Origin: Glaciozyma antarctica PI12
Taxonomy: Eukaryota > Basidiomycota > Microbotryomycetes > Kriegeriales > Camptobasidiaceae
DNA length: 64,000 nucleotides
Assembly: GCA_002917775.1 (NCBI GenBank)
Contig: KZ627161.1
Span: forward strand, 824,417-888,416
Direction of reading: 5' to 3'
The notes below the pieces were generated by a model, which saw only the letters and a program-made list of their open reading frames with translations, was not told where the DNA came from and searched no databases. Below, one piece after another: positions 2,767 to 59,734 of this stretch. The position numbers and the translations under genes were made by a program. The stretch's first letter is position 1. The number at the start of each line of letters is the position of its first letter.

Positions 2767-6189
<3,423 letters not shown>

Positions 6190-6725: not shown

Positions 6726-7929
6726 ATGTCTGTCAACGACGGCAAGCACCGAGTCACCTACCAGGATATCCACGTCGCTATCGGCCGCACGGGGAAGGAG
6801 ATCATGGCCTCGTTCAAGCCCGACATGATGGTGTCAGTCGTAGCTCCTCCTCCTCCTTCTCCTGCGTCTTGCTAACGCTGGAGCTTCTGCAGCGCCATCG
6901 CCGGTGGAGGACTGTTCCCTGCGCGTGTCATGGTTCGTTGGCGCGTACTCGACCGTCCCGGCGTAGCTGAACGACCTCTCTGCAGCGTACGTTCCTCAAG
7001 AATGAAGAACGCCCTAGGAACGTCCCCATCCAGACGATTGGCCTCTCCCTCTACGAGGACCTTGGACCCGACATTTCGGTCGGTGGGACTGGGCTCGGAC
7101 AGGAGGAGAAGATCGGAAAGGAGGTCGTGCGAACTCAGTGGCTCGACAAGCCGATTTTGGGTCGGCGCATTCTCATCGTGGTGAGTGCACGGCGGTGAAA
7201 GCTTGGTCGAGGATACGAGCTGAATCGGGTAAGTTATGTTAGGACGAGGTGGACGACTCGAGGACGACGCTGGGGTACGCCGTCACGGAGCTCAGGAAGG
7301 ACATTGCTGCCGAGCTTGCGATGCTGTCGCCTGAGCAGCAGGCAAATGTTCCCGAGACTGCTCTCGCAATCTTCGTTGGTGAGGTCGTTCTCGTCAAGGG
7401 GTGGAGCTAAGCTAACGAGGCAGCGCAGTTCACAACAAGCTCAAGACGAAGCGCGCCGAGCTTCCCAGCGACGTTGCGTACTTTTCGGGCGAGGACGTGA
7501 GTCCTCAGCTAGCTCCCTGCCGTTTGCATGCGCTGACTTGCTCTCTCAATTACAGGTTGAGGATCTCTGGTGCGTTTCGTTGTTGGGCTTGCTGCGACCC
7601 TTTACTGACCTGCTCTTCTCCTCTCCTCGCTTCGCCTTCTCCATCTTTCTTTTGCCATTCCTTCACTCCCGTCATCCACTCGCTCCCTCCTTCTTTCCCC
7701 TGCTCCTCCGCCGTCAATCCTCTCTTCGTTCCACCTCGCTCTCCGCCGCCCTCCCCGCCACCCTTTCTCCTCGCCCTCGCTTCCGACACCGCAGGATCGA
7801 GTACCCATGGGAGCAGCAGGTACGCCCACACCTTCAATCTCCTGGCGCAACTCGCTGATCCTTTGCTTGCCGCAGGACATCCTCCTTCACGACAGCCTCG
7901 CCGCTCAGCAGAAGGAGTTGGGTCTGTAA
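6726..7929 (+). CDS. XPT1: Xanthine/hypoxanthine phosphoribosyltransferase (Xpt1-like)
   Basis: Purine salvage enzyme that joins xanthine, and perhaps hypoxanthine or guanine, to PRPP in the cytosol. Eight exons: 6726-6832, 6893-6932, 6986-7180, 7243-7378, 7429-7496, 7556-7569, 7795-7819 and 7876-7929, giving 212 aa. The PRPP-binding loop is ILIVDEVDDSRTTLG near the middle, preceded by AGGGLFPARV, both family hallmarks. The C-terminus reads IEYPWEQQ then a short acidic-basic tail. Exon 6 is 14 nt and exon 7 is 25 nt; intron 6 is long for this locus (225 nt). The donor after exon 1 is gtcagt, chosen because it alone keeps the MMVAIAGGG junction. The start ATG follows a plausible 5' UTR and matches the usual length of the family. 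Assignment to Xpt1 rather than another 6-oxopurine transferase is by overall resemblance. Confidence 0.87.
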
Positions 7930-33529: not shown

Positions 33530-34779
33530 CGGAGGTGAGTATTTGCGTGGGGTGGTGGTGGTAGGAGGGAAAGCAGGTGCAGCTCGTCGGGGAGTCGTTT
33601 TGGATACGGCGTCACCAGCCTTTTTTTTTCGAGTCCTGCTCCTACTCAGCCAGGAGTCGCTCTTGTCGACCATTGACTTCAGACTGAAGCAGAACACGCT
33701 GAAGGAAGGACAGAGAGAAGATTTACAGGAGCGAGCTTCGCAAGGACCGGCAATTTCCCCACCGAGCTTCCCTCCTTCGTTCCTCATCCGGTGCAGGAGC
33801 CGAGTATCGATATTAAAGATCCACTACACACGTACGACATAGCGAGCTACGTTTATGTAGCCGCAACTAGAGTCAACCAAGCTGGACAAAGGCAATTGCA
33901 TTCCGTGAAAAGCGAAGAGAAGCGGAACCGCGCGCTTCCTTTCTCGTTCTCCGCAACGTTGCATACGAATCCGGTCCAGTTAAGGAAGCCTTCCACTCGA
34001 TGGTTACAGGCGGAGAGATCCCAGCGTCTCCAATAGGGCATCTCTCGATTCCATCGCGCGATTCCGCAGCATCGGTCCTGCTTGCTTCGGTACTCGGGCG
34101 CTGCTGCTACGTATAGCTCCATGTTGACCAGTTTAAGCCATTGCCATTTGTGAGGTGCCCTGCGAAGAAGTGAAGAGGGAGGAAGTACTCGCGCCTACAT
34201 TCCTTGCTCCAAGTTTTCGACTCTCCGGTCTCGATTTCAGGATCCGTTGTTCCTCCTCCTCGTGCTGGTTTCCGCAAAAGGGAGGGAACATGGAATGGGG
34301 AAGCACAGGCACTCGTCGTGCTGCCGTCGTGACGCTGGTCGGCCCTCGACACCTCGCACGACGCCAAACGTCGCTGCTCATCGTCGGCGGGTGCCTGGGC
34401 GTACGATAGATCTAGCAGAGTCTAGACGGCGACACGCGAGGACGTAGAAAGAGCAGCAGAGCCTGGATTAGCAAGGTTTTCTCGCTGAGACACTTGGCTG
34501 GAGAAACGTGAGCCGGGCTGGGTTCCGACAGATCCGACTCTCCTCCCCTTGCACCTTCTTCCCAACTCTTCTCTCCTGCAAATCCTCAGCCAAAAGTCAA
34601 CAACTTCATATCTCAAGCTCAGCAGCAGCAGCACCACCACCTCGCCACATCACCGCCCCCGTTCACGCTCACACCGACCCCCCCCCCCCCCCCTCCCCCC
34701 CCCCTTCCCCCACCCACCTCGGCAGCAGCAGCCCCCGTTCAACTCGCAGCGTCCACCTCCGTCAAAGCCGCACTCAGCA
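33530..34779. promoter_or_regulatory. Long divergent promoter, LEA-like gene / HSF-type gene
   Basis: The 1250 nt between two outward-facing start codons is the longest gap in the window. I see no gene in it. It includes a c-rich tract next to the HSF-type start. Its length suggests regulated rather than constitutive expression of one or both genes, which is inference. Confidence 0.5.
34678..34711 (+). repeat. Cytosine homopolymer tract
   Basis: Sixteen consecutive c, one t, ten c, tt and five c lie about 70 nt before the HSF-type start codon, in a broader pyrimidine-rich leader. The opposite strand has matching g runs. Confidence 0.95.
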
Positions 34780-36447
34780 ATGGCAGATACTCGCCCCGCT
34801 ATCAAGGTGAACGAGGAGACTCAGCAGGTTCAATGCGTGCGTTCCTCTCTCTCTCCTCGGTGTTCGGGGTCAGCTGCTAACCCTTAGCGTACCCGCAGCC
34901 ATACACAGGTGCGCTCCCTCCCCTTCACCCCCGGCAAAAGGAACTCTAACTGATCCATACCCTGTTCCTCCTCCTACAGCTACCACCTGCCCTCTCTTTG
35001 CTCCCGTCTTCACCGAGCAGGGTCAGTCGCCACTGTCTGAGATGAAAGGACCCCCCACTGACCCTCTCGGATATTTCCTTGATTTGCACTATAGAGATCC
35101 GCACCAACGTCTCCACAGTCCCCCTCTCCTACTCCGACTACTCCCTCACTCCTTCGGCTCCCGCACCTCCTCTCCACAACTTTTGCGCCTCAGCTCACGC
35201 CAACTCCAACTCGGCTCCTCGCGCTCCTCCTCAGTACAACCAGGCGCCGTACGAAGCCTCTCGAGGCGACTTGCAAAGCGTCTACCAGGACTCGAGCCGC
35301 CCTTCGATCAACCGCAACTTTTCAGCAGAGTCCAACTCGAGCGTCAACTCGCAGGAGCCGCCCGCGCCGCCGCCAGCTCCCTACGCGCCTAGGCCTTCGT
35401 ACGGTGGTACGCCCGGTTCGTACGATTCGCGATGGAGTGGGGCGGACTCGTGTGGGAGCGGGAGCGGGAACAACGCGCCGGGAGCAGGTCAGGAGGACTT
35501 GCGCACGCTCGATATGGAGGATATGCTGGGAGGGTTCGGCCGAGGACGCAAGGAGGTGGTCCCCAAGCCGCGAGAGCCGAGCTTTGAGCCTGTTGAGCCC
35601 GAGTCGAACGAGGCTGTTACCGTGAGTGCCGTTGCTCCCTCCCCTCTGCGTCCACTCCTGACCTTTCCCCCTTCCGCAGCCGTTTATCTCCAAGGTTCGT
35701 TTTAACTCCGGCCCTAGTTTCGGACTCCCTAAAGGAAGCATGCTAACGTTTCCTCCTCTTTCGCATCTTTCGCAGCTCTCGCACAGTCACGCCGACTACC
35801 AACACTATATTCGCTGGAACCGTCAAGGCAACGCCTTCATTTTTGCTCACACTTCGCCCGAGCTTTTGAACATCTTCTCTCGCTTTTTCAGGCACTCGTG
35901 AGTCTCGCTCGACTTCCGTGACGAGGGCGGCTCCCTGACGGCGTTCCCTTTGTCCCTCCTTACATAGAAACTCGAACTCTTTCGTGCGCCAACTCAATGT
36001 ACGCTCGCTCGCTCGTTACGAGATTCGCTGCTAACTCGTCTTCTCCTAGATCTGTACGCTTTCGCTGCTCGTCAACGCCTTCGAATCGGTCTAACATTTC
36101 GCACCTCTCCTCGCAGACGGCTTCACCCGCCTCACGACTCTCGAACTCCTCTCGGGTACGTTCCTCCGCCTCCCCCCACCTCGCATCGCAGGCGCTAACC
36201 CACGCCCCTCACAGCCGTCGATGATCACTCGTTCCCCGAGACCAACTTTTCGGCCGGCGACTTCTCAGGCTTCCACCACTCCCTCTTCTTCCGCGACACT
36301 CCAGATCACGTCTGCGACCTCGGCAGGATCAAGCCCAAAACGACGGCGAAGAAGTGGGCGGCCAAGAAGGCCGTGTCGGCGAGCGGAGGGTCGGGGAGGA
36401 GCCTCAAGGGGGAGGGCAAGACGGGGGGGAATATGAAGAAGGTTTAG
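34780..36447 (+). CDS. HSF-type DNA-binding transcription factor
   Basis: Winged-helix factor of the heat-shock-factor/Sfl1/Mga1 group. Ten exons: 34780-34836, 34899-34908 (10 nt), 34980-35021, 35095-35621, 35680-35694 (15 nt), 35776-35897, 35968-35998, 36050-36053 (4 nt), 36117-36155 and 36215-36447; 360 codons, closed. Residues 1-211 are low-complexity, rich in Ser, Pro, Tyr and Gln. The DNA-binding domain starts PFISKLSHSDYQHYIRWNRQ, continues NAFIFAHTSPELLNIFSRFF, and has the recognition helix HSNSNSFVRQLNIYGFTRL; the wing ends FHHSLFFRDTPDHVCDLG and a basic tail. The 4-nt exon supplies the Ile codon and the first base of Tyr in RQLNIYGF. I see no HR-A/B heptad region, so it is probably not the classical trimeric Hsf1. 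Confidence 0.87.
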
Positions 36448-49512: not shown

Positions 49513-51238
49513 ATGACAGCAGCAGAGTACGACACCAAAGCTGTGCTCTTGGAGGTGCGTTTCTCTTTCATCCACCTGCTGTTCTGCCCTGACCAACGCT
49601 CCCCGCGCAGCTCATGAAGGAGTACGTCCTCACTGTATCCCGGGACGCGCTGGCGGAGTTGCAGCTGACCTCCTTCTCTTTCTGCTTGTTAGGGGCGAGA
49701 ACAAGACCTGCGCGGATTGCGATGTTCCAATGCCGCAGTGGGCGTCGTTGAGGTGCGTCGACGTGCCGTCCAGGAGGAACCTCGTCTGACCGCTCTCTCC
49801 TCACAGCTTCGGTGTCTACGTCTGCCTGACGTGCTCTGGAGTACACCGTGGACTGGGAGTGCACATTTCGTACGCTTCCTTTTACCGGGGCGAGCCCACA
49901 AAATGTGGAGCTGCTGAACTAACGCTCCTCCCGGCAGCTTCGTGCGCTCGCTCACGATGGACAAGTGGACGGAGGCGCAGATTACCAAGATGCGTGTGGG
50001 AGGCAACAGCAAGTGGCGCCAATGGTGCGAGGCTAGCCCTGAGTACTCGAAGAACATGAACATTACGAATAAGGTTCGTCGAGGCGCAGGAGGAGCTTCT
50101 TGGGGGAGAGCTGACCCAGTGCCTCTTGCAGTACACCTCGCACTTTGCAGCCCAGTACAAGGACAAAGTGAGCTTTCCCCCTCAGCTCTTCTCGTTCCAG
50201 CACCAACGCGTCTTCGCGCAGCTCCTCGCCGAAATCGAAGGCCGCACCTGGTCTCCCGAGGACACTCCCCTTCCTAGCGCCCCCTCCCCCAGCTACTCCC
50301 TCCGCAAGCCTCGCTCCGTCAACTCGCGCGGTTCCTCCCCCGCCCCTTCTCGCGCGCAACAGCTCGCCTCCAACTCGTCCAACCGCCCCACCTCCCCTCT
50401 CAGCGCCGGCGGCGCAGGAGGCCTTTCGAACCCGTACAACCAGAAGGCGCGGAACGAGGATTATTTTGCGAACATGGGATCGCAGAACGAGGGACGGAGC
50501 GCCGACCTGCCGCCTAGCCAGGGAGGCAAGTACGGTGGGTTCGGCAGCGACGCGAGCTACAACCCCAGCAATTCGACGAGCAGTAAGGCAATTCCCACCT
50601 TCGACGACCTGCGGGACGATCCTGTTTCGGCGCTTGGGAGGGGATGGGGATTCCTCGGAGCTGCACTCTCGCGGGCCTCTCGAACGATCAACGAGTGCGT
50701 CTTCCTTCCCTCTCTTGCTCTCCACTAACCTCCTCCTAGGACCGTCGTCCAACCCACTCTCGAACGCGCCGTCGACCCCGCTCTCCAATCCCAATTCTCC
50801 TCCTACGTCAGCAAAGCCCAATCCGCTCTCACCGAAGCCTCTCGGAACGCCGGCGAAGTCCTCTCGCAAGGCTTGCAGCAAAACGGCTTCAACGATCTCG
50901 CGCAGACGGTCGAACGAGCGACGGGAAGGGGAGCGGGAGGAGGGTACGGACAGGTCGGAGCGAACCAGGCGCCGTCGGCGGAACAGCAGGAGGAGGGGGA
51001 CGATTTCTTTGGCAGTCATTTGGGAGACAACCACGCGAGTGGGAGTGGGAGTGCGAGTACGGGAGGGTATAGGGATGGAGGAGAGGATGGGTGGGCGAAA
51101 ATGGCGCCGCAGTCGGCTACGAGGGGAGTGGCGGGGAGGGCGTCGCCTGCCGCGAGTGGGCGGTCGTCGCCTGCTGTGACGAAGAAGGCAAAGGGGGACG
51201 ACTGGGACGATTTCGGTGGAGAGTGGAAGAACGATTGA
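49513..51238 (+). CDS. GCS1: ArfGAP1/Gcs1-type Arf GTPase-activating protein
   Basis: GAP for Arf1 on Golgi and COPI vesicles. Exons: 49513-49554, 49611-49621 (11 nt), 49693-49752, 49807-49869, 49938-50073, 50132-50167, 50222-50694 and 50740-51238; 439 aa. The zinc finger is C-x2-C-x16-C-x2-C, beginning KTCADCDVPMPQWASLSFGV and ending YVCLTCSGVHRGLGVHISFV with the catalytic Arg. KWRQWCEASPEYSKNMNI and YTSHFAAQYKDKLLAEIEGR close the domain. The middle has Ser-rich stretches such as ISKAIPT and a potential ALPS-like amphipathic helix near GWGFLGAALSRASRTI; the end DDWDDFGGEWKND carries Trp-acidic motifs used for coat binding. The 297 nt before the start show nothing else clear. Confidence 0.9.
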
Positions 51239-58809: not shown

Positions 58810-59734
58810 ATGGCGTACGTGGCTACTGAACTGCTCCCTGGATCTGCTGCTCACCCGGCGTCTCTCCAGTCTCGCTCCTCAGTTCGCTACGCACCGCTTC
58901 GGCAACCCAGCTGCTGCTCACACTCTCGAGCTCTACCTCGACCTCATCTGCCCCTTCTCGATGAAGCAGGCGCGTCGCTTTCATCTCCTCTAACACCCCA
59001 CGCTGACGAGTTCCTGCTGTCGCCAGCTCACGGGAGTTCGCGAGCACGTCCTCCCACTCCTTCAGTCCAACTCCGAGGTCGCCGACAAGCTCCAGATCAT
59101 CCTTCGTCAGGTTCCTCAGCCGTGGCACAGGTACGCTCCAAGCACGTAGCTTCGGGATAGACGCTGATTCGAACGCAGCTCCTCGACGCTCGTTCACGAA
59201 GCTGCTCTCGCCGCATCGCGTGCTGCCGTCGGATCGAGCAGGACCAAGTCCTACAGCGATCCTGAGGTCATCAGCCTTTTCCAGAAGTACTTCTTCGCGC
59301 TCATGGAGGGGCAGAAGGTGAGCAGTTCCGCGGCGGGCCTGGCAACACGACTAATGCGCGTCGCAGGCGTTCTATGATGAGCCTTGCGCGCAGGAGACTC
59401 CGAACGAGACGAGGGAGAGGCTGGCGGTCCTTGCTGAGAGTGTGGGGATCGACAAGGCTGCTTTCCTTGAGGCGAGCAAGGTCGGGGAGAGCAATGGAGG
59501 AACTCCAGGTTCGCTCGCTTCGGCTTTGGGCATCGCTCGACCTCGCTGATCTCGTTTTCGGGCGCAGTCACGAATGATCTCAAGCTTTGTGTCAAGTACG
59601 GACGACAGAATGGTGTTCACGTTACTCCTACCGTTAGCTTGGATGGACTCGTTGATCCTTCGATCTCATCCTCTTTCTCTCGCGAGGACTGGGTGAAGTA
59701 CCTTGTCGAAAAGGTCGGGGTCAAGTCGCTGTAG
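58810..59734 (+). CDS. DsbA-like thioredoxin-fold protein
   Basis: Thioredoxin-fold protein of the DsbA/2-hydroxychromene isomerase kind. Exons: 58810-58814 (ATG plus two bases), 58870-58969, 59027-59130, 59179-59317, 59367-59508 and 59568-59734, 218 aa. The fold opens AAHTLELYLDLICPFSMKQ; the active-site position is CPFS, so only one Cys is present, which argues against simple disulfide exchange. VREHVLPLLQ, ILRQVPQPWH, STLVHEAALAA, the helix ALMEGQKAFYDEPCAQETPN, and GVHVTPTVSLDGLVDPSISS with the cis-Pro T-P-T support the family. The second intron (58970-59026) begins gc rather than gt (gcgcgt) with a normal gctgac branch site and cag end. Function in fungi unknown. Confidence 0.82.

Follow-up and report, generated by a model that had tools for sequence, protein, structure and literature searches.

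The window analysed here is a stretch of 64,000 nucleotides (G000:C16:824417-888416) from a 20.0-Mb genome of 18 contigs. At 34780-36447 on its plus strand lies a gene of the heat shock factor (HSF) type, which we read as ten exons of 57, 10, 42, 527, 15, 122, 31, 4, 39 and 233 nt; once joined, these form a 1080-nt reading frame encoding 359 amino acids and a stop. In our gene model the start ATG lies in exon 1 (34780-34836), followed by exon 2 (34899-34908), exon 3 (34980-35021) and exon 4 (35095-35621), the last encoding the N-terminal region ahead of the conserved domain. Exon 2 is itself a 10-nt microexon, CCATACACAG, although its margin in the model (5.7 nats) falls below the mark of 10 nats used throughout this study. 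Directly upstream of the start codon, at 34680-34712, the window also contains a C-rich run, which could be real or an assembly effect.

The HSF-type domain starts in exon 5 (35680-35694), a 15-nt microexon encoding PFISK with a margin of 9.9 nats, just under the same mark, and continues through exon 6 (35776-35897). Exon 7 (35968-35998) encodes ...NSNSFVRQLN and ends in ...CAACTCAAT, exon 9 (36117-36155) reads GFTRLTTLELLS and begins with ACGGCTTC, and exon 10 (36215-36447) closes the domain and carries the TAG stop. Between exons 7 and 9 lies the feature on which this study centres, an internal exon of 4 nt (exon 8, ATCT, 36050-36053) that would supply the codon for Ile and the initial base of the one for Tyr in RQLN-IY-GF. 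Intron 7 (35999-36049, 51 nt) interrupts the frame between Asn and Ile (N|I, phase 0), with the donor GTACGC, a branch site GCTAAC at 36030-36035 and the acceptor CTCCTAG; intron 8 (36054-36116, 63 nt) interrupts the Tyr codon in phase 1, with the same donor GTACGC, a branch site TCTAAC at 36090-36095 and the acceptor CTCGCAG. With a plausible acceptor and donor, exon 8 falls well within the usual length of microexons (less than about 30 nt), and like published tiny exons it is needed both for the frame and for a conserved motif. A first-pass annotation had proposed this exon and its two introns from the letters of the window, and its coordinates proved exact.

Residues 214-317 of the predicted protein match the HSF-type profile PF00447 with 61.6 bits, well above the gathering cut-off of 22, although the domain is divergent for this family. 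The match extends over positions 1-96 of the 100 in the profile when exon 8 is included, and drops to 36.9 bits and positions 1-57 when it is left out. By sequence the domain also matches structure chains of HSF4, HSF2 and HSF1, and the printed alignments with HSF4 and HSF2 span the RQLN-YGF stretch. The closest named proteins found come from fungi such as Phenoliferia, Pseudohyphozyma and Meredithblackwellia, and the nearest relative overall is a metagenome protein (P0012) with 87% identity over 38% of the domain query, which ends before exon 8. Among the 20 homologues inspected (P0001-P0020; P0021 was left out), all 16 that could be read at the disputed position have Tyr there; we set aside P0004 and P0014, which carry intron-like residues after RQLN or RQLNI, and P0005 and P0012, in which the motif is not contiguous. 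At 35776-35800 the window gene reads KLSHSHADY, compared with KLSHLLSHSDY in relatives such as P0001. Since two residues (LL) are thus missing early in the domain, the full function of the protein is not certain.

Alternative readings of the RQLN-YGF region

We enumerated the splice readings of 35968-36155 that use GT-AG or GC-AG introns, allowing 0, 1 or 2 introns of 30-200 nt and keeping exons 5, 6 and 10 as well as the end of exon 9 fixed, and scored the products against a profile of ten homologues. The 104 readings give 90 distinct proteins. The best, at 162.5 bits, is the one with the 4-nt exon, giving the RQLNIYGF that the first-pass annotation had read through ATCT, and the runner-up (157.0 bits) uses a single GC-AG intron and reads RQLNVHGF. 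Because the profile homologues carry IYGF or LYSF, the preference for Tyr is built into this score, which is therefore not independent of the 16 of 16 homologues with Tyr.

The second line of evidence is a gene model that uses no homologue input. It was trained on 264 kb from the same genome (the window and 20 stretches of 10 kb), and its splice, length and coding tables were re-estimated without the window gene, although the background table, like the first training rounds, still included it. The splice and length tables come from 619 introns with long neighbours, which are the model's own predictions under a training ceiling of 130 nt; raising this ceiling to 200 nt barely shifts the distribution of intron lengths. 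The penalties for starts, stops, introns and GC donors were set by hand, and gene ends from the model are unsafe: the prediction at locus L037 fuses a JmjC gene with an HSF gene, and its 5' end varies between runs. Left free, the best path of this model consists of exactly the ten exons described above. Barring the acceptor of exon 8 costs 25.5 nats, the largest margin among the 55 exons of 1-15 nt predicted in the sample, and barring its donor costs 19.8 nats.

The two introns are of ordinary length for this genome (5th-95th percentile, 48-79 nt). In contrast, the 118-nt gap between exons 7 and 9 would be unusual as one intron: when introns of up to 200 nt are allowed, those predicted with long neighbours have their 99th percentile at 110 nt, and just 5 of 682 are 114 nt or longer. 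The splice signals around exon 8 are ordinary, not outstanding: relative to the 619 predicted reference introns, the donor, acceptor and branch site of intron 7 stand at the 54.6th, 53.8th and 63.5th percentiles, and those of intron 8 at the 24.1th, 99.0th and 26.5th. On the plus strand of the window, 2 of 229 AG-NNNN-GT pairs are this good by signal, exon 8 being one of them. As the other, at 49938, falls in what reads by eye as continuous ArfGAP coding sequence, we rejected splice signals alone as proof.

Four other explanations were weighed against these results. The first-pass annotation had held that only ATCT restores the motif, which is nearly so: joining 35968-36002 to 36117 through the single GC-AG intron also keeps the frame, without any microexon, and places VH between RQLN and GF. 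Elsewhere, 36 of the 933 introns that the model predicts are GC-AG, and it picks the GC donor at 36002, together with a 17-nt exon, once donor 36054 is barred. However, the VH reading scores 5.5 bits below the 4-nt exon, swaps out the Tyr seen in every readable homologue, needs an intron of 114 nt, and trails by at least 25.5 nats in the model, which does not choose it even when the acceptor of the 4-nt exon is barred; we regard it as very unlikely. A twin intron (stwintron), in which one intron sits inside a splice element of another and there is no 4-nt exon, is hardly credible here. Such introns are known in fungi (PMC5639578), but the 118-nt gap as a whole is not a multiple of 3, and the best of 34 nested readings (9 proteins) is again RQLNVHGF at 157.0 bits, which requires a GC donor. 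A stwintron proper, where an inner intron interrupts a splice element of the outer one and the latter then leaves whole and in frame, finds no support in these 34 readings. It is also most improbable that the gene is a pseudogene with no working protein and a fortuitous exon. The LL missing from the early domain would fit such decay, but the frame runs through ten exons without a premature stop, the metagenome relative is 87% identical over the part it covers, and the PF00447 match is far above its cut-off.

The remaining alternative accepts the exon and makes it a regulated switch. Joining 35998 directly to 36117 changes the frame immediately after RQLN, so the first-pass annotation was right that skipping shifts the frame, and yields a product of 354 residues with half the domain and a basic tail; there is no early stop, as this frame stays open to 36433 and ends at 36434-36436 in the last exon. 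In-frame stops do enter if intron 7 or intron 8 is kept. In view of HSF structures, the included form would be expected to bind DNA through the recognition helix, and the skipped form to lack this ability. Since the donor of exon 8 is weak to average and the next acceptor very strong, skipping could be favoured, and a microexon is used in this way by Xlr2 of Trichoderma (PMC11121469). Skipping would, however, need a 118-nt intron, a length that is rare among the predicted introns (5 of 682), and long open alternative frames are to be expected from composition at 60% G+C. A switch of this kind therefore seems unlikely. Judged by the sequence evidence, the 4-nt exon probably exists, and the best explanation as a whole, in which we place high confidence, is that ATCT at 36050-36053 is a real coding exon, normally included, in a transcription-factor gene of the HSF type.

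Intron positions in the HSF paralogues

A six-frame search of the whole genome with PF00447 returned at least 20 matches, which we grouped into 15 loci. The window gene is not among the matches listed, presumably owing to the division of its domain between small exons. We compared intron positions in the predicted models of 15 genes, leaving L042, in which the motif is not intact, out of this comparison and of the tree. In these model structures the RQLNIYGF stretch and the codon preceding it attract introns across the family. An intron at N|I in phase 0 is present in the window gene and in L033, L036 and L043, and one in phase 1 of the Tyr codon in the window gene and in L035, L038 and L040. 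The Tyr codon carries a phase 0 intron in L037 and L041, L030 and L034 use other single sites, L033, L036, L037 and L043 have a second, upstream intron, and L029, L031, L032 and L039 have no intron in this stretch. Only the window gene, among the 15 read, has both the N|I phase 0 and the Tyr phase 1 introns, exactly 4 nt apart. The 4-nt exon is thus the interval between two intron positions that are each found alone in HSF relatives.

Small exons arise from neighbouring introns in other members of the family, with 11 nt in L036 (14.4 nats), 11 nt in L043 (7.7 nats), 15 nt in L033 (7.2 nats) and 16 nt in L037 (7.5 nats). The borders of the PFISK exon recur as well: T|P in phase 0 is found in L035, L038, L040 and L041, and K|L in phase 0 in L034, where we read the boundary by eye and the model gave a 0-nt exon. 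Some of the homologues set aside above may carry traces of the same positions, judging from their protein letters. The insert in P0004, annotated as RQLN-LTLAPLSLQ-IYGF, looks like the retained end of an intron at N|I; RQLNI-CES in P0014 would fit a donor at the Tyr phase 1 site, and P0005 an intron within the Asn codon, as in L034.

A tree of 27 domains places the window gene in a group with P0004 (Pseudohyphozyma) and P0006 (Meredithblackwellia), supported at 96/91, and L035, L038 and L040 fall in one strongly supported clade, so their shared Tyr phase 1 site may represent a single event. Overall, 8 of 24 inner branches are starred. With support this patchy, the tree is compatible both with parallel gain and with ancestral presence followed by loss: an ancestor may have had both sites, one or the other being lost in the other genes, or the window gene may have gained its second site. 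A broader scheme can be drawn for this lineage, in which introns entered the HSF DNA-binding domain again and again at a small number of favoured positions and cut its recognition-helix code into exons of 4-16 nt in several paralogues, their inclusion serving as an on/off control of DNA binding; we consider this scheme distinctly unlikely.

Six of the HSF-type loci (L038-L043) lie within about 240 kb at G000:C3 1648458-1890209. Three of them, L038, L040 and L041, form a clade with L035 on contig C16 (support 100/99). At about 5068-5174 of L042 the model reads RRTPAKH where its relative L043 has RRQLNIY, and this paralogue is possibly decaying.

Other predicted tiny exons and the lineage of the window

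The predictions for the 264-kb sample comprise 154 genes, 933 introns and 782 internal exons. Among the exons predicted at 1-15 nt, 55 in all, we place no reliance on the 45 with margins below 10 nats; nine 'exons' of 0 nt are artefacts of the model, one of them (L046) with an unexplained margin of 68.1. Ten of the 782 internal exons are 1-15 nt long with a margin of at least 10 nats, and all ten lie inside recognised domains. Three belong to HSF genes: exon 8 of the window gene, the 11-nt exon of L036 mentioned above, and a second 4-nt exon, GATG, in L030 (minus strand, 4776-4779; G000:C14), which gives KLHSMVQTP with a margin of 18.8 nats in a domain that matches PF00447 over its full length (1-100, 118.5 bits). 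The smallest is a 2-nt exon, TG, in the KDM3-type JmjC gene of L037 (minus strand, 3165-3166; G000:C8, about 1103034-1103035; 11.7 nats by its acceptor), followed by a 13-nt exon and completing LHMD in the JmjC domain. The Pfam match stops short of this 2-nt exon, and alignments to two KDM3B chains span the junction, STKLHMDVADAVNVM. The others are a 5-nt exon, ACAAT, in an aldo-keto reductase gene of L034 (plus strand, 6808-6812; G000:C9; YRHLDNAAVYGNE; 13.2 nats), exons of 6 nt in a ferric reductase (L039), 10 nt in PCNA (L029), 12 nt in a YTH domain (L034) and 14 nt in a Zn2Cys6 domain (L044), and an 11-nt exon, ATTTTGGACAG, in the PH domain of a PH-ArfGAP gene of the window itself (reverse complement 59236-59246, about 4755-4765 on the plus strand; 21.3 nats). 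Exons of this size had been called rare in the first-pass annotation, a view that needs qualifying for this genome, as nine others of 2-14 nt are well supported in a sample enriched for HSF genes. Since 15 of the 21 stretches were chosen for such genes, we claim no genome-wide rate; the predictions suggest that conserved domains in this genome contain several exons as small as 2-15 nt.

The PH-ArfGAP protein also bears on the lineage. It is closest to proteins of Meredithblackwellia eburnea (50% identity) and Leucosporidium creatinivorum (46%); those of Rhodotorula, Rhodosporidiobolus and Sporobolomyces stand at 38-43%, exceeding this in short alignments only, and Pseudohyphozyma is likewise at 40%. 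M. eburnea is classified in the Kriegeriales and P. bogoriensis in the Chrysozymaceae, both within the Microbotryomycetes. Going by this single protein, the window appears to come from a Microbotryomycetes fungus, and the earlier assignment to the Sporidiobolales finds no support.

Proposed splicing of exon 8 and comparison with known systems

Introns 7 and 8 are both short, and a GT, a branch site and a YAG are present in each, so their splice sites would be expected to pair across the intron. If each intron is recognised across itself, the exon between them would need no minimum length. Removal of the two introns is probably sequential, in either order, since simultaneous binding at sites separated by 4 nt is improbable. 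Should intron 7 leave first, the second donor would sit 4 nt beyond the new junction, a recursive-like arrangement but not recursive splicing proper; with the latter, defined by stepwise removal and a regenerated 5' splice site, the anatomy of exon 8 is compatible only. Inclusion would place Ile-Tyr in RQLNIYGF and keep the remaining DNA-binding domain in frame.

If transcripts confirm this, the gene would offer a clean test case for the minimum size of a constitutive exon between two short introns, and would illustrate concretely how such exons may come about, from two intron positions of a family that lie 4 nt apart. Its absence from the six-frame PF00447 results shows how genes with such exons get missed, and several exons of 2-15 nt in conserved domains would make this genome suitable for systematic study.

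Our literature search for heat shock factors and microexons in fungi, which had most subscription journals outside its scope, found no paper on the subject by title. Exons this small are already known elsewhere, and more is learned from the finding that both intron sites recur in paralogues. What is new is that each of the two flanking intron positions is found by itself in three other HSF genes of this genome, and, at the level of model prediction, the set of ten well-supported exons of 1-15 nt, including the second 4-nt HSF exon and the 2-nt KDM3-type exon.

In the bglA genes of basidiomycete yeasts, microexons (<30 bp) reach down to 5 bp in Sirobasidium magnum and 6 bp in Rhodotorula minuta, and are termed putatively common features of these yeasts (PMC9142197). 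The likeness to the window gene extends to the lineage, to short introns (means of 59-81 bp) and to a GC-AG intron beside microexons; however, bglA is an enzyme gene whose exons were set against cDNA, whereas ours would encode a transcription factor and its exon is predicted from DNA (PMC9142197). The CYP621A gene of Fusarium has a 1-nt exon across many orthologues, confirmed by RNA reads in two species, and the introduction of the same paper cites exons of 2-5 bp for Arabidopsis, Drosophila and humans (PMC12940212). There too a tiny exon in a conserved motif was inferred from frame and motif and from an oversized apparent intron, but it is 1 nt long, widely shared and RNA-confirmed, unlike the predicted 4-nt exon (PMC12940212). 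Human MPC1 has a constitutively included exon of 4 bp, the same length as exon 8 and likewise not a multiple of 3, although it is flanked by long introns and depends on exon definition, whereas the introns around exon 8 are both short (PMC9929638). Closest in its potential consequence is Xlr2 of Trichoderma virens, where a microexon decides whether the DNA-binding domain is present; its authors describe fungal microexons as little studied (PMC11121469). In both genes a microexon would govern the DNA-binding domain of a transcription factor, but condition-dependent inclusion was demonstrated for Xlr2 (PMC11121469), whereas the window exon is predicted from DNA.
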